In this document: in pieces, positions 3,280 through 29,455 of the stretch
How positions within the stretch are numbered: the first letter of the stretch is position 1
Layout of the letters: each line of letters starts with the position of its first letter
Virus record (IMG/VR): IMGVR_UViG_3300042090_000433
Location: 1-31,264 of that record
DNA length: 31,264 bases
DNA from: a virus
Strand: one strand, 5' to 3'
Position numbers and translations under genes: made by a program
The notes under the pieces: generated by a model
Database searches by the model: none
What the model was told of the DNA's origin: nothing
What the model saw: only the letters and a program-made list of their open reading frames with translations

Positions 3280-3612
3280 GTGAAATACAAAGAAAAACTT
3301 CAATTTGCAAACGAACTTCTCGCCGAAGGAAAACGTGCATCGGCTATGACCGATGAGCAGCTGCTCGATAACTTTGAAAAGGGCAAGCTCACTGGCTTTG
3401 AATACCCCGAGCTCATGAAGCGTGGATTTCGTGATGAACTTCTCCAGCGTTGTGACACGAAAGATGAGCGCATCGAAGTCTGGTACGAGTCTTTCGCGTG
3501 GGAACGTATAACGGCCTACGCCTCCCGCCTTCAACCACCTTCGATGGAAGAAGCCTTCGCTCACAGCGAAGAAGACCATGCGCGAGCCGAGATGATAGTG
3601 TCGGCCAACTAA
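3280..3612 (+). CDS. Hypothetical early protein (110 aa)
   Basis: This is the first rightward gene after the lysogeny switch. The best start is a GTG at 3280 (VKYKEKLQFANEL), preceded by TAGGAGAAAAT as ribosome site; an in-frame ATG at 3217 has no ribosome site. The protein is acidic and mostly helical: an N-terminal helix, a DEQLLDNFEKGKLTGFEYPELMKRG segment, and a C-terminal part with EERIEVW-type helices ending in MIVSAN. I recognise no family. Position suggests an early regulatory or host-takeover role, but nothing in the sequence shows it. Confidence 0.7.
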   Translation: MKYKEKLQFANELLAEGKRASAMTDEQLLDNFEKGKLTGFEYPELMKRGFRDELLQRCDTKDERIEVWYESFAWERITAYASRLQPPSMEEAFAHSEEDHARAEMIVSAN

Positions 3613-3633
3613 CCAACCACAACCCTCAACCCC

Positions 3634-3655
3634 GGTGGGCTGTTGAAAACCCACC
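3634..3655 (+). promoter_or_regulatory. Intercistronic hairpin, copy 1
   Basis: GGTGGG and CCCACC are separated by 10 bases and followed by CTTTC. The stem is followed after about 19 bases by TTAAAGGAG and the next ATG. The same layout recurs at 4103-4124. It may be a weak terminator, an RNase site or an mRNA stabiliser. Confidence 0.5.
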
Positions 3656-3688
3656 CTTTCAGCCCCATGCCTTAAAGGAGATTTCAAG

Positions 3689-4090
3689 ATGTCCGTTCGC
3701 AAACCTGCTCTAAGCCCAGAGGAAGCCCAGCACACCCTCCTCTTTGTCCGCTACGTCGTCGAGCTTGTTATGAAGATGTCCGGCGAGGCACTGGTCACCC
3801 TCTACCACTTCATGCCGACTGGTCTTCCGCACGACAAGGTGCTTCGTGAAATTGTGGAGTCGCAACTGGTGCAGCGCAATATTCTCACCTTCGTGAACGA
3901 GAAGCTGGTGTGGAACGTCCCCGACGAAACGCACAACACGCTTGTGGATCACTTCGGCGCAGCAGCGTCCATCGAAGACGAGTTCTTCAGCAACGTCCTG
4001 AACATCGGAAACCCGCACAAGCAAGTGTGGGAAGACGAAGCCTATGACTTGGGAGAAACCGCTGCCCTCGTAGAAGCTGACGGCGACTAA
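3689..4090 (+). CDS. Hypothetical early protein (133 aa)
   Basis: An acidic, soluble protein starting MSVRKPALSPEEAQ with a strong ribosome site (AAAGGAG). Residues about 15-50 form a hydrophobic helical region (HTLLFVRYVVELVMKMSGEALVTLYHFM). The segment DKVLREIVESQLVQRNILTFVNEKLVWNV has the helix-helix-strand look of a winged-helix fold, so a DNA-binding role is possible but unproven. The C-terminus is strongly acidic (EDEAYDLGETAALVEADGD). No family is recognised. Hairpins lie on both sides, at 3634-3655 and 4103-4124. Confidence 0.75.
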   Translation: MSVRKPALSPEEAQHTLLFVRYVVELVMKMSGEALVTLYHFMPTGLPHDKVLREIVESQLVQRNILTFVNEKLVWNVPDETHNTLVDHFGAAASIEDEFFSNVLNIGNPHKQVWEDEAYDLGETAALVEADGD

Positions 4091-4102
4091 CAACTACAAC
4101 TC

Positions 4103-4124
4103 GGGTGGGCTTTCACAGCCACCC
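4103..4124 (+). promoter_or_regulatory. Intercistronic hairpin, copy 2
   Basis: GGGTGG and CCACCC are separated by 10 bases and followed by CCTTTGATTT, then TTAAAGGAG and the next ATG 32 bases beyond the stem. It is the same cassette as at 3634-3655, with a matching loop length and matching distance to the start codon. Confidence 0.5.
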
Positions 4125-4155
4125 CTTTGATTTCTGCGCATTAAAGGAGCAACAA

Positions 4156-4380
4156 ATGACCGATGTCACGAAACTCAGCATTCCTCAACTCGTCGCACTG
4201 CTCTACGCCAACGCTTGCACCGACGACGTTCTGCACCGCCGCTTGGCGGTAGAGCTTTTCCAGCATCGCGGCGTCCGGATCAAGCTAGATGATGAACATC
4301 AGACCAGCTATCTAGACCTAAGTGATGAGAATAACGAGACCGTCCACACTCTCATTTCTTCCAACGCGCCAACCGACTAA
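4156..4380 (+). CDS. Small hypothetical early protein (74 aa)
   Basis: The start at 4156 (MTDVTKLSIPQL) is chosen over an upstream in-frame codon at 4105 because it has TTAAAGGAG seven bases before it and because 4105 would translate through the intercistronic hairpin. The protein is short and acidic: a helical N-terminal half (QLVALLYANACTDDVLHRRLAVELF) and a C-terminal half with charged strands. No family is recognised. It sits directly before the structured 4394-4521 intergenic region. Confidence 0.7.
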   Translation: MTDVTKLSIPQLVALLYANACTDDVLHRRLAVELFQHRGVRIKLDDEHQTSYLDLSDENNETVHTLISSNAPTD

Positions 4381-4393
4381 CAACCTCACATAC

Positions 4394-4521
4394 AAGAATT
4401 TTTCATTCCTCGTGTTCAGAGTGGCCGCCCAACATTCTGGACGCGAGGGATGAGAATTCTTTCCGAGTTTTCCAGCTTCGGAAGTATCAGGTGTAAGCAA
4501 AAATCGCCCCGCTGACGCGGG
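4394..4521 (+). ncRNA. Candidate structured RNA: 26-bp stem-loop plus two hairpins
   Basis: Arm 4394-4420 (starts AAGAATTTTTCATTCC) pairs with 4436-4461 (TCTGGACGCGAGGG...ATTCTT) over 26 base pairs with one bulged T and four wobble pairs, all U on the 5' arm and G on the 3' arm, closing a 15-base loop. A second hairpin, TTTCCGA/TCGGAAG, spans 4460-4484, and a third, CCCGC-TGAC-GCGGG, spans 4508-4521 just before the next ribosome site. No reading frame of note crosses it. It could be a leader regulating the 150-aa and primase genes, an RNase III processing site, or a small RNA. The structure is visible; the role is unknown. Confidence 0.55.
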
Positions 4522-4542
4522 TGGATAAATAGGAGCTACAAA

Positions 4543-4995
4543 ATGGTTCAATCGAGTCTGTTCCGCCGTGCCCTTCGCTACAAAGGTTCCCTTCCAAAAG
4601 TTGTTGCTGTCCGTCTGGGTTGTCAAGAAGCCGATCTTCAATTCCTCAAGACCTACAATTTCAGCGATGTTCAGTTCCGCATCCTCACAGATACCATCTG
4701 CAATCTTCCCGCTGGCCCGAAGTTTCAGCTTCGCAAGCTGATGCTCGATCTGGTGCGCCCTGCCGCCGATGACGAACTCAACACGGTGGTTTCACAGGAA
4801 GACATTTACACGCCAATCTTCGTGGCGTTCCTCGTTCAGCATATCGACGTGAATCTTGGTCAGGCATGGTTGCAGTTTGCCACTGGCCGTGAAAAGCGCG
4901 ATTCCCGCTTCGACTTCCGCAAGCTGCTCAAGGCGACTGAAGAGACCTTCCTCACCTACGATGCCGACGGCGTCAGTGATGTGGAGGTGCTGTAA
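4543..4995 (+). CDS. Hypothetical protein coupled to the primase gene (150 aa)
   Basis: It starts MVQSSLFRRALRYKG with GGAGC as ribosome site and ends in a TAATG overlap with the primase gene, so the two are translationally coupled and probably act together. The N-terminal 35 residues are basic (RRALRYKGSLPKVVAVRLG), suitable for nucleic acid contact; the rest is mixed helix with a long acidic C-terminus. No known replication accessory motif is visible. A replication-associated role is inferred from coupling alone. Confidence 0.75.
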   Translation: MVQSSLFRRALRYKGSLPKVVAVRLGCQEADLQFLKTYNFSDVQFRILTDTICNLPAGPKFQLRKLMLDLVRPAADDELNTVVSQEDIYTPIFVAFLVQHIDVNLGQAWLQFATGREKRDSRFDFRKLLKATEETFLTYDADGVSDVEVL

Positions 4996-7385
4996 TGGAT
5001 TTCAAGTCAAGAGCACTTCCATACGCCCAGATGGGCATTCCAGTATTTCCGCTCCAGCCCAACGAGAAAGTTCCAGCCAAGGGTTTCATGGCATGGCAGA
5101 TTGAAGCCACCACCGATTTGGCCAAGATCAACGAGTGGAACGATCAGAACTCTGAATGCAACTGCGGTTTGGTTGCTAAGAAAGATGGTGTCTGCTTCCT
5201 TGAGTTCGACATGCAGGGCGGCATGAAGGCTGCTGCCGAGGAAATGGGCCAGCCGATTCCAGTGACGCGTGTGCATCGCTCCGGTAAGGGTTTTGCCCAC
5301 TACATCTTTCGCCACACTGAAAAGAGCAACGCGCTGGGCAATCGTCAGGCCAACCTGCCGAACGGCCACGAATGGTTCTCACTCCGCTCGCTGAACCGTT
5401 ATGTGGTTGGTGCTGGCAGTGTTCATCCCAACGGCAACATGTACACCGTGCTCCGCGACATCGAACCAACGCCAATTCCTGATTGGGTGTTGGAGTGGGT
5501 CGCCAAGAACAGCAAGGCGGAAGTCAGCCAGAGCAAAAAGGATGGATCGCCTGTAGTTGATGAGTTCGATTTTGAAGACTTCATTGACCACTATGGTGAA
5601 GCCACGGCACTCGCCTACACCAAAGACAACAATTTCCACGTCACGGAAGTCTGCCCAGCTACTTGGACAGGTCCCGGCACTGGGCGTCGTCACGAGGGTT
5701 CCACGGAAACTGGCTTCTTCTACGATGGCTCACACTTGGGCTTCAAGTGCTTCGCGCAGGGATGCCCAGGTTCTGAAATGTCCATCGGTCAGCTGCTCAA
5801 GCACCTGAACCAGTATTGCGAGCCGTACCCTGAAAACATCTGGCCAGAGCGTGACATCAGTTCGTTTCTTGATGATGTGGAATGGGCTGACGACGTGGAT
5901 GCCGATGAAGTCATAAATGGTGTGCCTGAGCCAGCCGTAGAGCCTGTGGTCGTGGCTACAATTCCAGCTGCACCTGTTGCCAATCCTCCGGTGGCTGAAG
6001 TGGTGAAGCAAGTCGTGGCCGAGGTCACGGTTGACCTGTCTGAAGGCTACAAATACCCGGAACTCCGCTTCCCATACGAGGCACTTCCCGAGGGTCGTTT
6101 GAAGACTCTGACGGATGAGGCTTGCGCTGGTGAGCTTGATCCCGGTCTGGTGGTTCCAGCACTCATGGGGCTGGCATCGGCGGTCCCGGCCAAAAATGTT
6201 CACGACGGTGATCTACGCATCAACCTATATGTATGTCTGTTGGCGCTGGTGGGTGGTGGCAAGGATGTCGCCGTGGGCCGTGCAATTCAGGCACTGGGCC
6301 TTGCTAACCATGAAGGCCAGCTCTACACAGAGCACAATCCTTCGGGTGAACGTGCCGTGGCCATGCTGCTGTGCGATAAGAAGGACAAACCCGGACCCAA
6401 GCATCACTGCATCGTGAGTTACGAATTGGAAGAGACGTTGAAGAAGGCCAAGGCTGACACCTCTGGTGTTCTTCAGGCGATGCAGCACTTCTACGACCAC
6501 GACACCAAGACGCTGATGATGGATAGCAAGAAGGGCACCACGCAAAAGATCGACTGCCGCCTATCATGGCTGTCTGGATTCCCTGTTGGCGACAAGGAAA
6601 TTGAGCCCACCAAGTTCAAAAGCGCGTTTGGCGAAAACAGTTCCCACGGATTGTCTTCACGGCTGCTGTTCGGGTTCAGTGAAAGACGGTTTGATAACCG
6701 CAAGGCTCGCATGGCGCGCCGGAGCGTTCCGATGCAAGAGGTGGTTGCCCACGAGTCGTGCGACTATGCACCTGAGCCACAGGACATGAGCGATTGGGAC
6801 ACCAATTCCATCACGGCAATGCTGAGAGGACAGGTTGTAGAAGGCTTTGAACCCGATGCCGAACAGCAGTTCATCAACTGGAACCCTGAAGAGGATTACA
6901 GCGGTCGTGACACATTCCACGTTCGCAAGGTTGCTGTAATTGTTGCCCTGCTCAATGGCCATCGTCTTGTGGATATGGGGGATTGGCTGTTCGCCAAAGC
7001 GTTCATGGAGTGGCAGGGTCAGCTGCGCCGGACGTTCCAGTCCAGCAAGTCTCAGCGTGTGACGCAGGGTGCGTTCAATGAAATCGTTCTTGACGAAACC
7101 TCTAAGCGCACCGACCGACTGAAGAAAGGCACTCTGCCCACAAAGCAGGGCCGCATTACTGAAGTTGCCGACGGAGAAAAGGTCAAGAGATTCCACTGGA
7201 TCAACTGGGGCCAGATGTCGAATTCTATGCGGTGGGCAAAGTACGGCATGGACGTCGAGCGCACCATCGACCAACTTGTGCGTTCCAATGCTCTTCAATA
7301 TCTGACCGAGCGTGAAGAGAACAAGGACGGCAAGGAAATTTGGGTGGAGAACAAGAAGTACGTTCGCATCTTCGGAACATGGTAA
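4995..7385 (+). CDS. Bifunctional primase-polymerase with C-terminal ATPase-like domain
   Basis: This 796-aa protein is the likely replication protein. Residues 1-170 match the bifunctional primase/polymerase (Prim-Pol, PF09250) fold: GIPVFPL, the acidic pair E70 and D72 in FLEFDMQGG, RSGKGFAHY at 95-103 and VVGAGSVHPNG at 137-147. A Cys/His cluster (VCPATW, RRHEG, FKCFAQGC) around 210-260 may bind zinc. A Pro/Val/Ala-rich linker follows at about 310-350. The C-terminal half resembles DUF3987-type primase-helicase ATPases, with a P-loop-like LVGGGKD at 418-424. That P-loop is unusual: the invariant Ser/Thr after K423 is Asp and the first Gly is Ala. A terminator and the candidate origin follow directly, so origin recognition by this protein is plausible. 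Confidence 0.88.
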   Translation: MDFKSRALPYAQMGIPVFPLQPNEKVPAKGFMAWQIEATTDLAKINEWNDQNSECNCGLVAKKDGVCFLEFDMQGGMKAAAEEMGQPIPVTRVHRSGKGFAHYIFRHTEKSNALGNRQANLPNGHEWFSLRSLNRYVVGAGSVHPNGNMYTVLRDIEPTPIPDWVLEWVAKNSKAEVSQSKKDGSPVVDEFDFEDFIDHYGEATALAYTKDNNFHVTEVCPATWTGPGTGRRHEGSTETGFFYDGSHLGFKCFAQGCPGSEMSIGQLLKHLNQYCEPYPENIWPERDISSFLDDVEWADDVDADEVINGVPEPAVEPVVVATIPAAPVANPPVAEVVKQVVAEVTVDLSEGYKYPELRFPYEALPEGRLKTLTDEACAGELDPGLVVPALMGLASAVPAKNVHDGDLRINLYVCLLALVGGGKDVAVGRAIQALGLANHEGQLYTEHNPSGERAVAMLLCDKKDKPGPKHHCIVSYELEETLKKAKADTSGVLQAMQHFYDHDTKTLMMDSKKGTTQKIDCRLSWLSGFPVGDKEIEPTKFKSAFGENSSHGLSSRLLFGFSERRFDNRKARMARRSVPMQEVVAHESCDYAPEPQDMSDWDTNSITAMLRGQVVEGFEPDAEQQFINWNPEEDYSGRDTFHVRKVAVIVALLNGHRLVDMGDWLFAKAFMEWQGQLRRTFQSSKSQRVTQGAFNEIVLDETSKRTDRLKKGTLPTKQGRITEVADGEKVKRFHWINWGQMSNSMRWAKYGMDVERTIDQLVRSNALQYLTEREENKDGKEIWVENKKYVRIFGTW

Positions 7386-9771: not shown

Positions 9772-10971
9772 ATGGCAATCGACATCAAGGCACTCAACAC
9801 TCGCAAGAAAGAACTTCTGGACGCTCAGGAGAAGATGCTGGTTGCGGCCACCGACTCCAAGATTCAGTTGACCGCTGCTCAGGAAGAGCAATTCAAGAAC
9901 TTCACCAACGAGATTGACAGCATCAATACCAATCTCGCCCGCACCGAGGCCATCAACAAGGGCAAGCTCGAAGTTGGCGTGCCTTCCAGCACGCTGGCCA
10001 TCCCTGCTGACTTCAGCAACGTCAAGTCGAAGTACACCAACTGCACCGCTGAGTATGCGGGTGCCTTCTGGAATGCTCTTTCGACCCGCAACTTTAGCAA
10101 CGCCGCACTGGGCGAAGGTGGAACGGCTGCCGATGGTAGCTTCCTTGTTCCAAACCAGACTGACCCCAGCATTCCGAACCTCGCTGTAATTGAAGCGAGC
10201 GCTCGCAAGCTGAGCCGCGTTATCACCACAGAAATGGACGTCAAGCTGCCCTATCAGGCATCGAAGACGGTTGCCGCGCTGAAGGCTGAGTCCAACAACA
10301 CCAGCACGAACGCTTTCGCAACCAATGTTCCGACCTTCAACACCACGACCCTGACGGCATATATGGCTGGTGACAGCGTGGCCGTTTCTTGGGAACTGAT
10401 GCAGGACGTCAAGGCTCTTTCGCAGTTCATCACCGCCGACCTCAATCGCGCCGTGTACAACTACGAAGAGGGCATGTTCATCAACGGTACTGGCACTGGC
10501 CAACCGCTGGGATACGTCACTGGCGCAACGCAGTTTGCCACCGAAGCCCTCTCCATCAACAACATCCTTGACCTGATTGCATCAATCAAGGCTGCATACT
10601 TCTCTGGTTCTTCGTTCTTGATGAATCGTTCCGAGTTTCATCGTTTGTATAAGGCTCAGATCGCATCCAGCCAGTTCCAGACCTATGTCACGTATGACGT
10701 GAACGGCCAGCCCCGCATTCTGGGCTTCCCGGTTTACTTCTCCAGCGTGATGCCGACGTACCTCGCGTCACCTGCCACCACTGGTGCTGTTCTCTTCGGA
10801 GACTTTTCTGCCGGATGGGTGATCGGTGATCGTGGTGACGCCAATATCCGCGTCAAGGTGCTCGACCAGGTTGCCGCGCTCAACGGGCAGACCATTGTTC
10901 TCGGCTACCGTCGCACCGACCAGCGCTGCGTGCTTCAGGAAGCAGTAGCTTGCTTGACGACCAACGCATAA
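9772..10971 (+). CDS. Major capsid protein, HK97 family
   Basis: This 399-aa protein is the shell subunit. Residues 1-75 are a helical, charged delta-like scaffold domain (KALNTRKKELLDAQEKML, then an NEIDSINTNLAR helix), followed by the HK97 core: GGTAADGSFLVPNQ, the SRVITTE-to-KLPY strand region, VAVSWELMQD, NYEEGMFINGTGTGQPLG and a C-terminal VIGDRGDANIRVKVLDQ. These are standard for PF05065. The scaffold part is probably removed by the ClpP-like protease encoded at 14865. Start ATG 9772 is chosen because the protein begins like relatives here and has AGGATTT upstream; an in-frame start at 9700 is unlikely. Oddly, the gene lies between terS and terL, flanked by a motif A upstream and a terminator downstream. 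Confidence 0.94.
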   Translation: MAIDIKALNTRKKELLDAQEKMLVAATDSKIQLTAAQEEQFKNFTNEIDSINTNLARTEAINKGKLEVGVPSSTLAIPADFSNVKSKYTNCTAEYAGAFWNALSTRNFSNAALGEGGTAADGSFLVPNQTDPSIPNLAVIEASARKLSRVITTEMDVKLPYQASKTVAALKAESNNTSTNAFATNVPTFNTTTLTAYMAGDSVAVSWELMQDVKALSQFITADLNRAVYNYEEGMFINGTGTGQPLGYVTGATQFATEALSINNILDLIASIKAAYFSGSSFLMNRSEFHRLYKAQIASSQFQTYVTYDVNGQPRILGFPVYFSSVMPTYLASPATTGAVLFGDFSAGWVIGDRGDANIRVKVLDQVAALNGQTIVLGYRRTDQRCVLQEAVACLTTNA

Positions 10972-17365: not shown

Positions 17366-17761
17366 ATGCCCATTGAAATTGAAGGCCTCGCCGACTTGTC
17401 TGAACTTCTCACGGAGCTTACTCCGAGGGCAGCGAAGAGGTACTTGTCGCGCTGCGCGGAACCCGCTGCTCAAGTCGTCATTGACGCAATGGAAGAGACC
17501 GTTCCTGTTGGCGTTGGTGTTCTTGAAGAGGGCATGGGTTGGCAAAAGAAGTGGGGCAACGATGGTGATGAAACCACGATGGAAATCAACATCGGCCCGT
17601 TGAAACCGTTCTTCTGGGGATCGCTGCAAGAGTTTGGCACCGCGACGCAACCTGCTCAGCACTGGATGGGAACCGCGTGGGAAACCAGCCGCGATAAGTG
17701 CCTTGATGTTTTTGCTACTGAAGCCATCGGGTTACTTCAGGATTTGGAGAACAAGAGATGA
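17366..17761 (+). CDS. HK97 gp10-like tail completion protein
   Basis: This 131-aa protein has the HK97-gp10 (PF04883) shape: an N-terminal helix (LSELLTELTPRAAKRYLSRCAEPAAQVV), a DAMEETVPVG segment and the KPFFWGSLQEFGTATQPAQHWM stretch, where the EFGT...PA.... motif is characteristic. It acts at the head-tail interface. ATG 17366 is chosen because the family begins with a short N-terminal strand before the helix; in-frame codons back to 17192 encode residues unlike the family. The ribosome site is weak. The stop overlaps the glycosyltransferase start as ATGA. Confidence 0.83.
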   Translation: MPIEIEGLADLSELLTELTPRAAKRYLSRCAEPAAQVVIDAMEETVPVGVGVLEEGMGWQKKWGNDGDETTMEINIGPLKPFFWGSLQEFGTATQPAQHWMGTAWETSRDKCLDVFATEAIGLLQDLENKR

Positions 17762-18456
17762 AGGTTAGCGCCATCATGCCCGTTGGTTATGGAGACAGGT
17801 ACTTTCAGGTCGCACTGAACAGCTTCCTCTCCCAGACCTACGAAGGCGATCTTGAGCTTATCGTGCTGGACAACAGCGCAGAGCCTATTGAGCACCTGCT
17901 TCCAACCGATGAACGCATCAAGTATCACCGCTGTACCCGGATGCCTGTTGGCGCTTTGCGTAACCTCGGAACTTCGTATGCCACAGGTGAAGTTTGCATC
18001 TCGTGGGACGAAGACGACTGGTATGCAGACACCCGAGTTGAAGAGCAAGTCACGCGGCTTGAAGAGACAGGTAAGTCGGTCACTGGCTGGCACAACGTCC
18101 TGTATTACGACACTTCTAACAGCGGAACATACAAGTATTTCTACGAGCCAACAGGCCGGAATCACCCACCCTATGCATGTGGCACTTCCCAGTGCTACCT
18201 CAAGTCGTGGTGGGAGGGACATAAGTTCCCCGATACAGGCGTTGAGGACTTTGGCTTTCAGCTTGAAGCACTTCACCTGAACTTGCTGGACAGCTGTGAC
18301 GCAGGTCAGTTGTGCGTGGCCAGAGCGCACGGCGATAGCAAATGCCCACCCCAGTTTGGACACAAACAGTTTCCCGCAGTGAGCAAAGACTTGCTGCCCC
18401 AAGAGTTCTTCAACGCAATCCGCGCTGTGGAAGCAAATCCAGTACAGGAGCAATAA
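17758..18456 (+). CDS. Family 2 glycosyltransferase
   Basis: This 232-aa protein has a GT-A fold. The N-terminal VSAIMPVGYGDRYFQVALNS and SQTYEGDLELIVLDNS segments match GT2, as does RNLGTSYATGEVCISWDEDDW with the DEDD metal/nucleotide-sugar motif at 84-87. A Cys-rich middle and a VEDFGFQLEA segment, which may supply the acceptor-side acidic residue, follow. No membrane segment is visible, so it would act in the cytoplasm. It overlaps the gp10-like gene by 4 bases and is followed after three bases by the tail tube gene, inside the late operon. Known precedent: some actinobacteriophages glycosylate capsid and tail tube proteins. A virion protein substrate is the favoured guess. Confidence 0.87.
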   Translation: MKVSAIMPVGYGDRYFQVALNSFLSQTYEGDLELIVLDNSAEPIEHLLPTDERIKYHRCTRMPVGALRNLGTSYATGEVCISWDEDDWYADTRVEEQVTRLEETGKSVTGWHNVLYYDTSNSGTYKYFYEPTGRNHPPYACGTSQCYLKSWWEGHKFPDTGVEDFGFQLEALHLNLLDSCDAGQLCVARAHGDSKCPPQFGHKQFPAVSKDLLPQEFFNAIRAVEANPVQEQ

Positions 18457-24218: not shown

Positions 24219-27112
24219 TGGGCATCTTTGGTAGCAGCAATAAGGGTCCGACAAAACTCAACGGTGTCTCAATCAATCAGTCCAAACAGGGCTTCGCGAT
24301 TGCCGCCCTGATGGGGCAGAACAAGATTCAACAGTCCATTATCTGGCTGGATGGCTTGCACTCGGTTCAAGCCTCAAGCGGTGGCGGCAAGGGCGGTGGT
24401 AAGAGTGGTGGGGGAAACTACCTTTACACCGCTGACGTAATCGCGGCCTTGTGCAATGGGCCTGTGTCATCCATCGCAAGTGTGTGGTCTGGCCAAACGT
24501 GGCTTAGCACCCTGACAAGCTCTGAGAGCACCGTGCTGACCGGAACAACGTACACACCAACTTACAGCGCCAATCTAGCTGCTGACAATGGCGTGTCCAT
24601 GCTCACGACGTACAGCGGAACGTACAACGACTTTGGCGCGTCTAGCTCAACCGTGTTGAGTGGAACCGACTACACGCCAATGAAGCTCGTACCGTACGGA
24701 ACAACGCTTACAACGGGCATGTACTCAATCAATTCGTCCACTGGCGCGTACAACTTTTCCAGCGCCGATGTCGGCAAGCCCGTGGTCGTCAACTACCAGT
24801 ACTCGTTGCAGAACTTCATTCAGCAAGAGACCGACCTGATTCCGAGCAACGGAACAGTTAAGCCAGGTGGTGCGAATGGGCCTCAAGTTGACATGGGGGT
24901 TGTGTTCTACAACAACGGCACGAGCATTGATGGAACGAAGCTGACAGCGGTGACGACCACCCCGACTGTATCCGGCACCTACAAGTTCACTTCCAACAAC
25001 TCGGCTGCACCGACGTACCAGTTCGCCACGGTGGATGCGAACAAAGAAGTCCTCATCACGTGGTCATACACCAACAAGGCTGCTGTCTCTAGTCCGTCAG
25101 ATACACTGCTCAACTTTGAATTGTTCACAGGAGCCCAGAGCCAAGCGGTTGCACCGTATATGCTGACTGGCTACTCCCACGGCGACAATGGTGTCACATA
25201 CTTCAACCCTGCGTTCCCGGCAGAAGCCTTGGGATACACGAACACGGCTTATGTCCTCTACTACCCGATGGAACTCGGTAGCGATGCAGAACTTCAGGAC
25301 AACACATTTGAAGTCATCACCCCTCATGCGTTTGGTGGTGGCATCGTTGACTGCAACCCCGTCACCTGCCTCTACACCGTGCTCACCAACTCTGTCTGGG
25401 GCTTGGGCAGCGGAGCGCAACCGTTCCCTGTATCAGCCATTGACAACGGAACGAACGGCACTTGGGGTTACTCATCCCCAACTGGTGGCGCTCGCACCTC
25501 GAATAGCACGGCTTGGAACTGGTTCGCCGCACAAAACTTCTTCATATCGCCAGTGATCGACAGCCAAGACACCGCTGCCTCAATTATGAGCAAGTGGCTT
25601 GAGGCTGGTATGTGCTCAGCCTTCATGAGCGAGGGTCTGCTGAAATTGGTTCCGTACGGTGACACCAGTGCGGCTGCTAATGGCTGCACTTGGGTTGCGC
25701 CTTTCTCCTACGTGGTGGCCTTGGATGACACTTGCTTCATCGCCAAAGAGGGTGAAGACCCTGTCAAGATTGAGCGCAGCGCATGGCAGGATGCCAACAA
25801 CAAGATTCAGGTCCAATACAAGAATCGCGCGAATCAATATTCTGACGACATCCTTCAAGAGTCCGACCAAGCCGCAATCAATCGCTATGGTCTTCGTGTC
25901 GAGGATGCCCAGAACTGGGACTTCATCACCACAGTGACCTCTGCAACATTCGCCGCCAATATGCGGTTGAAGCGCAGCGTCAACATTCGTAACACCTACA
26001 CCTTCACGCTGCCCTACACGTATTCGTACCTTGAGCCAATGGACATCGTGCCAATCTCAACAACGTCTGTGTGGGCGGCTGGACTGAACAACGCCAATTT
26101 GGGCATTGTGAATTTGCCCGTTCAAATCACCAAGATCGTGGATGATCCGGTCAACGGTTTGGAAATCACGGCAGAGGATTACGCCTACGGAACTCACAAG
26201 CCTGTCCTCTACAACAAGGGCATTTCCAGCGGCGATATCGTCATCAACCAGTACGCGAATCCAGCAAACTCAGAGGTCGTCCTATTTGAAGCCACATCAC
26301 GTCTCACTGGCTTTACAGGCAACCAAATCTGGATTGGTGCTGCTGGTGCCTCTGCTGAATGGGGTGGTTGTGCAATCTGGATCAGTTCGGATGGAGCCAA
26401 GTACACACAACTGGGAACAATCACAACCCCAGCGAGACTTGGTACGTTGGCCAGCGCATTGCCCGTAGGATCGGCTGCTGACACGGTCAACAGCTTGGTA
26501 GTGAACATTGCTGACAACTGTGGCGCTCTCTTCGCTGGGACGCAGTATGACGCAACGCAAAACAACACGCTCTGCTACGTGGACAACGAGCTAATCAGCT
26601 ATTCAGCCTGTGCCCTGACTGGTTCGGACCAGTACACGATGAACACGTATCTCTCCAGAGGCGCGATGGGTTCGACAATCGCCTCTCACGCGGCTGGAAG
26701 CTTGTTCATGCGTCTGGACGATTCCATCTACAAATACACCTACGACCCTCAATGGTATGGGAAGACTTTGTACTTCAAGTTCTCGTCGGTGAACAGTTTC
26801 AACAACTGCCCACAGGACCTCGCAACGCTAACAGCGGTGCCGTTCACTGTTCCTGGCCTCAATCCCGGCACCGTGAGCGCGTCCACTGGAATCGTGACGG
26901 CAACATCGGTGGTGTATCCGGCCAATGGAAGCAATCCACCCAAAGCCGTTTCCACGCTTGAACCTGCCGAACCCGGAGCGGATTCAACCGCAAACAATAC
27001 AGCCGTCGCTATCGTGAACCCTTCGTTCTCTTCGGCTACCACAGTGACATCAGGTGTACCCGGCTGGACTGTTCCAACAGGCTGGTCCGTGGTGACTGGA
27101 GGAGTGGACTAA
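24218..27112 (+). CDS. Large tail baseplate/hub protein, phage-tail_3 type (GTA gp15-like)
   Basis: This 964-aa protein is the central tail-tip protein. It starts MGIFGSSNKGPTKLNG and has a Gly/Lys linker (SSGGGKGGGKSGGG), a VIAALCNGPVSSIASVW segment typical of the family, an AWNWFAAQNFFISPVIDSQ region and an ITAEDYAYG motif. Its end has LEPAEPGADSTANNTA, then PSFSSATTVTSGVPGWTVPT, which begins a carbohydrate-binding-like beta-sandwich but is cut off by TAA at 27110-27112. The next gene continues in the same frame and completes that domain. Start at the TAATG overlap; an earlier ATG at 24101 lies within the peptidase gene. Confidence 0.88.
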   Translation: MGIFGSSNKGPTKLNGVSINQSKQGFAIAALMGQNKIQQSIIWLDGLHSVQASSGGGKGGGKSGGGNYLYTADVIAALCNGPVSSIASVWSGQTWLSTLTSSESTVLTGTTYTPTYSANLAADNGVSMLTTYSGTYNDFGASSSTVLSGTDYTPMKLVPYGTTLTTGMYSINSSTGAYNFSSADVGKPVVVNYQYSLQNFIQQETDLIPSNGTVKPGGANGPQVDMGVVFYNNGTSIDGTKLTAVTTTPTVSGTYKFTSNNSAAPTYQFATVDANKEVLITWSYTNKAAVSSPSDTLLNFELFTGAQSQAVAPYMLTGYSHGDNGVTYFNPAFPAEALGYTNTAYVLYYPMELGSDAELQDNTFEVITPHAFGGGIVDCNPVTCLYTVLTNSVWGLGSGAQPFPVSAIDNGTNGTWGYSSPTGGARTSNSTAWNWFAAQNFFISPVIDSQDTAASIMSKWLEAGMCSAFMSEGLLKLVPYGDTSAAANGCTWVAPFSYVVALDDTCFIAKEGEDPVKIERSAWQDANNKIQVQYKNRANQYSDDILQESDQAAINRYGLRVEDAQNWDFITTVTSATFAANMRLKRSVNIRNTYTFTLPYTYSYLEPMDIVPISTTSVWAAGLNNANLGIVNLPVQITKIVDDPVNGLEITAEDYAYGTHKPVLYNKGISSGDIVINQYANPANSEVVLFEATSRLTGFTGNQIWIGAAGASAEWGGCAIWISSDGAKYTQLGTITTPARLGTLASALPVGSAADTVNSLVVNIADNCGALFAGTQYDATQNNTLCYVDNELISYSACALTGSDQYTMNTYLSRGAMGSTIASHAAGSLFMRLDDSIYKYTYDPQWYGKTLYFKFSSVNSFNNCPQDLATLTAVPFTVPGLNPGTVSASTGIVTATSVVYPANGSNPPKAVSTLEPAEPGADSTANNTAVAIVNPSFSSATTVTSGVPGWTVPTGWSVVTGGVD

Positions 27113-29455
27113 ATGAGTCAATGCTTACAAACAACAACTGCGTGCGGAACGTCTGAAGGCTACAACACCACGATGTCTGTGTTGGTTGGACAAGTGGTGG
27201 TGGCACAAGGATACTGCAAAGCCATCGGCGTCACGGGCACAGGTGGAATCAGAATTGACTGGCTTAACTCTGCTGGGACGTTGCTGAGTTCCACCACCAG
27301 CGCGACCACAGTTACCGGAACAAGCAGCTGGACGCTCTGCAAGGTCGTAGGAACGGCACCAGCGTCCACAGCCTACGCTCGCTTCGCGTTCTACACGACC
27401 TCTTGCACCGCCGGATACTTCCAGTTCGATGACTCGATGATGCAGCTCCAGTCTTCATCCCTGGACGAGGTGCCCCAAGGCAACACGTTCAAGTCTGTCA
27501 CGGCGATTGACCCGAACGGAAAAGCCATCATTGACTTGTCTCAGGCTCACCTGAACAAGACAGCTTCAAACATCACCTTCGCATCTGGAGCGACGATTGA
27601 ATCACTAAAGCCAGCGGCTGCTGGTGCCGATGTCACCGCGAACAATACCGCTGCTGATACAGCGAAGGTAAACGGGGTGGTGTCTAGCAGCATCAGTCCG
27701 ATTGCAACCCTTATGCCCGCACAAGCTGGTGCCGACAAGACAAGCCTGAACACAGCCGCAAATACGTCAGCCGTCGGCAGTAACACGGCATCAGATGTCA
27801 ACAACACCGTGCTCTCAGGTGGTGGCATCAACTTCGCCTCTGGTCTTCACACAAACAAGACACTAGACAACATCGGCGACGGTTCAACATACGCTCGTGT
27901 CAACTCTTCCGCGCTAACAGGCAACAACATCGACCCCAGCAAGTCGGGAATGTTGATGAAGGGCAGTTTGCCGCCAGTGTTGACCAATGGCTTCACATAC
28001 ACTTCGACCACATCTTCAATCACTTGGAACTGGCCAAGCAGCATGGCAATCTACAGAGCCGATGGCACCCTCACCTCAGTGGGCGCTGGCTCACAAAACA
28101 TCAGCGGTCTGGTTTCATCCATGCCGTACTACTTCTATCCGTGCTGGAACGAGACGACTCAGGCGTTGCAGTGGATTGGTAATTCCAACGTGGCTTCCGC
28201 CACGATGGTCGGCTATACAGGAAATGGAACAACGGGTTACGTCAATACGGCAACAGCGGTATCCACCCCAACGAACTTTTCCGTTGAATGCTGGGTGAAC
28301 ACCACCAACACGAGCAACAGCCTTCCGCTGCTATCTCTCAGTTCGCCTGACGCCATCGGAACGGCTACGAGCGTAGTGTTTGCCATGACGGCTCAGTGCG
28401 CCGGATACCTTGCAACGTCTTCATCCGCGTATGAAATCGAGTATGGAACTCTTCCAGCGGGACAGGTGTTGTACGACGGCATAACACATCACATCGTATT
28501 TACATGGAACGGCAGCACGAAGGGATACGCTGTTTACTATGATGGCGTACTGGTCGGCAGTGGTACTGCGGCTTCTGCTCTGTACTCCACGACTGGTCTC
28601 TATTGGCATATCGGAGCAGTGCAAGGCAAGGCGTCTGGATGGCTTTGGACGACCAACAGCTACTCGTGGGCTTCAACTGTCCTGTCCAATGCTGCCGTTT
28701 ACAGCACGGTGCTGACCACCGCGCAAGTTGCGAACCATTACCAGACCATGGTCAACCTCGGCTTGACGCAGTACAACACCGTGGTCACTGCTGACGCTCC
28801 GACCTACTGGTGGAAGCTGAACGAAACGTCAGGCACCACAGCAGCCGATTCAGCCGGAGGCAACACAGGCACCTATCAAGGTGGTGTGACGCTGAATCAG
28901 ACGATATCTTCCTTTGGTGCTGTTGGCTCCCCTGCCTGTGCATGGAAGGGCACCACATACCTCACGGCTCAGGCCGCGTCCGTGCAAGGAATGGTTCCCC
29001 TCACCAATGGCGCGATATCAGCCACACCGTCAGGTGGTACTGGTGGCTCAGGAGGAAGTGGCGGCGACGGTGGTGGTGGGTGCTTCTCACCGAATACACG
29101 TGTCAGGACGCAGCGCGGTGAAGTTCGCTTTGACGAACTGACGCTTGACGACTCGGTTCTGACAGCAGCCGGAACATGGCGGCGCATCGCCAAGTTGCTC
29201 ATTCATGACTGGACCTCTCCCATGCTCGACATGGGGGACGGTGAACTCATCACCTACAAGCACAGCGTTCTGGACGGCCACACATGGGAACGCGGCTGCA
29301 CTCTCTTCGGCGGCTCGCAGCTGTATTGCGGACAAGTCTGGAATCTTGAGACTGACGTTGATGAGCCGGATGAAATCGGCCAAAGCCCATACACAGAACA
29401 CAGCTACACGCTGGCGAACGGCCACGTCGTTCACAACGGATTTTCAACGAAGTGA
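27113..29455 (+). CDS. Tail fibre-like protein: beta-sandwich, LamG and C-terminal Hint domain
   Basis: This 780-aa protein directly follows the hub gene in the same frame after one TAA, with GGAGGAG 8 bases before its ATG. Residues 1-115 look like the rest of the beta-sandwich begun in the previous gene. Two GAD-TxxNTA-type repeats follow (near 165-210). Residues about 365-547 form a LamG/concanavalin-like domain (FSVECWVNTT, AVYYDGVLVG, WASTVLSNAAVYS), and 565-640 a truncated second one (YWWKLNETSGTTAADSAGG). A Gly-rich linker leads to Cys657, which starts a 124-aa Hint domain: CFSPNTRVRT, LDDSVLTAAGTW, YKHSVLDG and a final VVHNG. This would bind host glycans and may self-cleave before Cys657. 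Confidence 0.87.
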   Translation: MSQCLQTTTACGTSEGYNTTMSVLVGQVVVAQGYCKAIGVTGTGGIRIDWLNSAGTLLSSTTSATTVTGTSSWTLCKVVGTAPASTAYARFAFYTTSCTAGYFQFDDSMMQLQSSSLDEVPQGNTFKSVTAIDPNGKAIIDLSQAHLNKTASNITFASGATIESLKPAAAGADVTANNTAADTAKVNGVVSSSISPIATLMPAQAGADKTSLNTAANTSAVGSNTASDVNNTVLSGGGINFASGLHTNKTLDNIGDGSTYARVNSSALTGNNIDPSKSGMLMKGSLPPVLTNGFTYTSTTSSITWNWPSSMAIYRADGTLTSVGAGSQNISGLVSSMPYYFYPCWNETTQALQWIGNSNVASATMVGYTGNGTTGYVNTATAVSTPTNFSVECWVNTTNTSNSLPLLSLSSPDAIGTATSVVFAMTAQCAGYLATSSSAYEIEYGTLPAGQVLYDGITHHIVFTWNGSTKGYAVYYDGVLVGSGTAASALYSTTGLYWHIGAVQGKASGWLWTTNSYSWASTVLSNAAVYSTVLTTAQVANHYQTMVNLGLTQYNTVVTADAPTYWWKLNETSGTTAADSAGGNTGTYQGGVTLNQTISSFGAVGSPACAWKGTTYLTAQAASVQGMVPLTNGAISATPSGGTGGSGGSGGDGGGGCFSPNTRVRTQRGEVRFDELTLDDSVLTAAGTWRRIAKLLIHDWTSPMLDMGDGELITYKHSVLDGHTWERGCTLFGGSQLYCGQVWNLETDVDEPDEIGQSPYTEHSYTLANGHVVHNGFSTK

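Follow-up and report, generated by a model that had tools for sequence, protein, structure and literature searches.

In RcGTA, the megatron and hub proteins form the trimeric core of the baseplate, and a separate fibre is bound via the fibre-binding domain of the megatron (PMC7296036). Hub and receptor-binding modules can be carried by one chain, as in gpJ of phage lambda, or by separate chains, as in pb3, pb4 and pb5 of phage T5 (PMC10721106). Wild-type lambda is without side tail fibres, the stf gene being disrupted by a frameshift (PMC10721106). The T5-like phage DT57C has a two-chain fibre, LtfA and LtfB, where a relative has one chain, and natural deletions are known to fuse the two (PMC4728585). 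Docking of LtfB was proposed to occur through its own N-terminal region (PMC4728585).

A search of a literature library for papers linking gene fission with phage tail fibers found none. To our knowledge, in the precedents that can be named for hub and adhesin as fused or separate genes, the division lies between domains.

Tail genes of the virus

The stretch of DNA analyzed (the window) is a complete linear virus record, 31,264 bases long, and the virus is a soil-type bacterial virus. Pfam matches were obtained to an integrase, a primase-polymerase, capsid, terminase and portal proteins and a ClpP-like protease. The tail genes form a GTA-like series, in which DUF2460, the gp84N/BR0599 hub and NlpC/P60 precede the split hub gene in that order, which is the gene order of the megatron type. 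The hub encoded by the split gene matched Phage-tail_3 with 68 bits (curated cut-off 23) and Rcc01698_C with 43.1 bits (cut-off 27). Because these two domains are present, the hub is, as judged from sequence, a homologue and the counterpart of the RcGTA megatron, of the Rcc01698 type. Coordinates of the features described below are collected in Table 1.

No match to named phages was found in a DNA-level search with the window, nor in a tblastn search with the joined region on both sides of the hub stop codon. Hub identity to phages of Acinetobacter, Pseudomonas and Brevundimonas was merely 28-34%, and a scan of the GTDB species genomes did not find the hub family. A gene for a glycosyltransferase of family 2 (window 17758-18456) was observed at an odd location, flanked by the tail-completion/gp10-like genes on one side and by the tail tube gene on the other.

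Table 1. Location of the hub, the adhesin and the junction between them in the window.
Feature	Position	Strand	Basis
Hub ("megatron"-type, Rcc01698-like) ORF, 964 aa	24218..27112	+	ORF and Pfam/PHROG matches
Phage-tail_3 in hub	about 25559-26059	+	Pfam
Rcc01698_C in hub	about 26432-26707	+	Pfam
N-terminal part of CBM_4_9-like sandwich, 35 residues, at hub C terminus	27005..27109	+	Independent profile, positions 2-24
Shine-Dalgarno GGAGGAG, 8 nt upstream of ATG 27113	27098..27104	+	-9.3 kcal/mol with anti-SD
In-frame TAA splitting the domain	27110..27112	+	Sequence; also in L002; ordinary stop in window
Second ORF, adhesin, 780 aa	27113..29455	+	ORF; LamG_3 and Hint matches; L071 homologue
C-terminal part of CBM_4_9-like sandwich, at adhesin N terminus	27113..27448	+	Independent profile, positions 42-131; AF2
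LamG-like (concanavalin A-like lectin) domain	28223..28732	+	Pfam PF13385, E 3.4e-10
C-terminal Hint (intein-like) domain after Gly-rich stretch	29078..29452	+	Hint_2/Vint, below curated cut-off

The junction between hub and adhesin

An earlier note, made from the sequence of the window, had described that the hub ends in TAA and that the next gene starts at the adjoining ATG without a change of frame, and this is what the sequence contains. A shared frame between neighbours is by itself unremarkable, as the first hub gene and NlpC, and likewise the glycosyltransferase and tube genes, are also in frame. The hub TAA is followed by 780 open codons, compared with 0-154 after the other 20 listed stops. 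The GGAGGAG site of the second gene, which the same note had called ideal, was found to be among the strongest in the window. Its duplex energy was equalled or exceeded at five of the 503 plus-strand ATGs, the ATG of the second gene included, and was reached at none of the 132 internal in-frame Met codons. Termination followed by re-initiation would be the simplest route to the second protein.

The same TAA is present at the hub end of a second IMG/VR record, 3300014167_000021 (L002), which has a single mismatch to the window, at 24609, in 12,973 bases. The assemblies of the two records are likely independent.

A carbohydrate-binding-type domain on both sides of the stop

A CBM profile with a length of 136 positions was grown over the fetched relative loci from L009, a relative retrieved via its hub and carrying a CBM-like domain within its single ORF. 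No window sequence was included in the profile. The joined window region was aligned by this profile across the stop. The 35 residues before the stop corresponded to profile positions 2-24, with 10.3 bits (4 of 5000 shuffles were as good), and the residues after the stop to positions 42-131, with 29.7 bits (0 of 2000 shuffles). The two halves match complementary, colinear stretches of one profile, and beyond chance, which supports the earlier proposal of one carbohydrate-binding-type sandwich split by the TAA. Alignment to uninterrupted homologues, which had been suggested as a check, showed the window halves to be colinear with the intact CBM and placed the stop inside the domain, with roughly a quarter to a third of the CBM_4_9-type sandwich ahead of it. 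The stop and the start Met are aligned with the usual Ser-Gly of the intact homologues, ahead of the "QSL" strand. The part before the stop retains the conserved N-x-x-F motif, with the invariant N and F of the alignment, as well as PGW.

Pfam CBM_4_9 (PF02018) was above its cut-off in L071, in L009 and in one L044 copy. The joined window region had no match in Pfam and did not reach the CBM_4_9 cut-off. The window domain is a diverged relative, linked to CBM_4_9 through these three loci, and is therefore referred to as CBM_4_9-like rather than assigned to the family; any carbohydrate binding by it is putative. The intact homologues were missed by phmmer with the joined domain alone, and a profile was required. 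A PHROG match across the stop was dropped as evidence of continuity; the part after the stop alone gave an E value of 1.4e-8 and the joined region 1.3e-7, and adding the residues before the stop does not raise the score.

AF2 models were obtained from shallow input alignments of 11 and 9 rows. The joined region was predicted to be a sandwich with nine strands of at least 3 residues and a mean pLDDT of 76.7, in which the residues before the stop were of low confidence (pLDDT about 52-70). The part after the stop was by itself predicted to form an eight-strand sandwich with a pLDDT of 82.9. The joined model has the sandwich fold of CBM4/16/22 (PDB CBM22/CBM16, E about 1e-6); it matched CBM22, CBM16 and CBM4 structures with a best E value of 6.2e-7 and a TMt to CBM16 of 0.72-0.74. 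For the model of the part after the stop the values were 7.2e-5 and 0.49-0.50, a drop that is partly due to the shorter chain. The stop thus lies within the canonical domain; most of the sandwich belongs to the second chain, and this chain may be able to fold by itself.

Layouts of hub and adhesin among relatives

Among the hubs surveyed, 49 ORFs had a 3' end, and these gave 39 distinct complete C-termini. In the hub relatives (51-74% identity) the ORF often continues unbroken through variable modules to a Hint domain at the C terminus. A single chain up to a Hint-like His-Asn ending was found for 18 of the 39 distinct C-termini, L027 included, where the contig ends just after the His-Asn. The remaining distinct hubs end earlier, and many of them are followed by separate adhesin genes. 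Hub and intact CBM share one ORF in L009, L044, L053 and L060, and hub and CBM are in one ORF in L064 as well. In L017 and L018 a single ORF, without the CBM, joins the hub core to parts homologous to the adhesin regions past the CBM and to a Hint domain. In L071 the adhesin is separate and consists of an N-terminal region of its own, an intact CBM and then the FN-like, LamG and Hint series known from the window adhesin. Judging from these layouts, the boundary between hub and adhesin is fluid in this hub family.

A boundary within a domain was seen only in the window lineage, i.e. in the two near-identical records. L049, in which an in-frame ATG comes immediately after the hub TAG, was taken up as another candidate and rejected, since its second gene starts at a domain edge; the N-terminal domain of this gene has homologues inside the single hub ORFs of L047, L050 and L053.

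Two further observations were made at the hub ends. Compared with the near-identical hub of L051, L052 and L070 have an inserted gene directly past the hub stop, just after position 10172; the L052 copy was tested and found to be homing-endonuclease-like, with a NUMOD3 motif. The C-termini of the short hubs of L041, L046, L048, L051 and L057 have a common motif around GAGP, and the separate fibre encoded next may dock on this end.

The second ORF and its Hint domain

The adhesin of the window begins in the middle of a domain, whereas the separate adhesins of L048, L071, L082, L087 and L090-L092 begin with regions of their own. Its homologue in L071 is 50% identical over adhesin residues 236-775. 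The Hint domain begins with CFSPNT and terminates with VVHN-GFSTK, and reading of its sequence revealed the nucleophile Cys at its start (CFSPNT), the TxxH motif (TYKH) and the terminal His-Asn (VVHN). Hint-like ends were also observed in L003, L013-L019, L023, L026, L027, L032, L040, L044, L045, L047, L053, L060, L063, L071 and L087. The domain follows a Gly-rich stretch, starts with Cys and ends with His-Asn and a few residues, without the conserved splicing nucleophile. In these phages the Hint domain is common at hub and adhesin ends; its role may be to trim or attach the adhesin.

Two other occurrences of Hint-like domains were observed. L074, a 463-kb contig of jumbo-phage size, has two, apparently arranged in tandem, where a tail-like protein ends (ORF 3406-6372), and L075 has one near the end of a phage-type gene (ORF 5128-6414), with a Gly-rich tail past the His-Asn. 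The adhesin module with Gly-rich stretch and Hint-like end is also present in Candidatus Acidiferrales MAGs (L090, L091 and L092), which suggests Acidobacteriota hosts.

Probable origin of the divided protein

The locus is probably the result of a lineage-specific gene fission, in which a once fused tail-tip protein was cut inside its CBM and translation restarts at a strong site. The ancestral single chain would have been composed of a GTA-type megatron hub, the CBM_4_9-like domain, linkers, an FN-like region, LamG, a Gly-rich stretch and Hint. From this chain, an in-frame stop at its location inside the CBM would have made two genes, presumably in that direction and recently. The second part would be made by termination-reinitiation, with the strong site lying within the final codons of the hub gene, and this restart site either happened to be good or became good. 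The virion would carry hub and adhesin as separate chains, probably joined to each other in the trimeric tip through remaining contacts, either of the CBM sandwich parts or of other regions.

The earlier proposal that a long protein was cut by one substitution was only partly upheld. The cut is supported because relatives pass this point in one ORF. A single substitution finds no support: Ser-Gly stands opposite the stop and Met, and a change from Gly to ATG requires at least two base changes, if Gly is ancestral. Members of the family also commonly encode hub and adhesin in separate genes, so the fused state is one that we infer for the direct ancestor. Recombination joining partial genes may also have given rise to the split.

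Reassembly of the split CBM in trans by the two chains, where the first strand or strands, carried by the hub, and the rest, carried by the adhesin, form a non-covalent joint that fastens the adhesin, is regarded as doubtful. Such a joint would fit the start of the adhesin in the middle of a domain, unlike the separate adhesins of relatives, and the retention of N-x-x-F and PGW before the stop. It is also consistent with the better fit of the joined model than of the post-stop piece to canonical CBM structures, and with the trimeric baseplate core of the related RcGTA (PMC7296036). However, the low confidence with which AF2 places the part before the stop argues against it, and reassembly is not obviously required because AF2 folds the part after the stop alone, at higher confidence. 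We consider it unlikely as well that the stop is a recent damaging mutation, which would leave too little adhesin made, or none assembled, and render the phage adhesin-deficient or change its host range. The stf frameshift in the laboratory strain of lambda offers a precedent (PMC10721106), and the confinement of the split to this lineage would agree with such damage. Against this, the 780 codons are still open behind a strong ribosome site exactly where it is needed, the same form is present in two assembled records, and no other adhesin was recognized among the genes 3' of the hub within the window.

The hub and the second ORF share their frame, so that a hypothetical fusion would have 1745 residues, as had been calculated. 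The suggestion that occasional read-through of the TAA makes this fusion alongside the short hub draws on the shared frame, the lack of a spacer and the fused form of relatives, but was not borne out and is very improbable. TAA is the usual stop in the window, ending 13 of the 21 listed genes (12 besides the hub); the base after the hub TAA is A; no tRNA genes were found in the window; and RNA structure at the junction was no more than in shuffles (z -0.06). Neither a leaky context, a stimulating structure nor a suppressor tRNA, as known for programmed read-through, was thus found. Recoding of TAA was rejected on account of its use as an ordinary stop by the window genes, and junction RNA structure as a stimulator was rejected on its z value. 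A sequencing or assembly error, which the earlier note had raised as a possible source of the stop, is the least credible explanation. One wrong base could suffice to create it, but the near-identical L002 carries the same TAA, the stop comes together with an ATG and a strong Shine-Dalgarno site, and no other broken gene was found among the recognized structural genes of the window.

Comparison with known systems

If the halves do not reassemble, the locus represents an ordinary lineage-specific gene fission. If they do, the split would offer a testable example from nature of a domain that is put together from two parts in a virion. The cut within a domain, together with a ready-made restart, would provide a snapshot of how a division of hub and adhesin can arise.

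The locus resembles RcGTA in its order of DUF2460, gp84N/BR0599 hub, NlpC/P60 and megatron, in its Rcc01698_C match (PMC7296036), and in having a fibre chain that is separate from the megatron. Unlike in RcGTA, where the fibre is held by the fibre-binding domain of the megatron, the chains of the window are divided inside the CBM sandwich. The counterparts in lambda gpJ and T5 are whole domains, whereas in the window one domain is common to two chains. The division between LtfA and LtfB of DT57C is likewise not within a shared domain, in contrast to the division found here. Structure matches showed that the central fibre gp20 of mycobacteriophage Douge and TSP4 of CBA120 similarly have a CBM-type sandwich in a tail fibre or spike. 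Both of these are continuous chains, whereas the sandwich of the window is divided.
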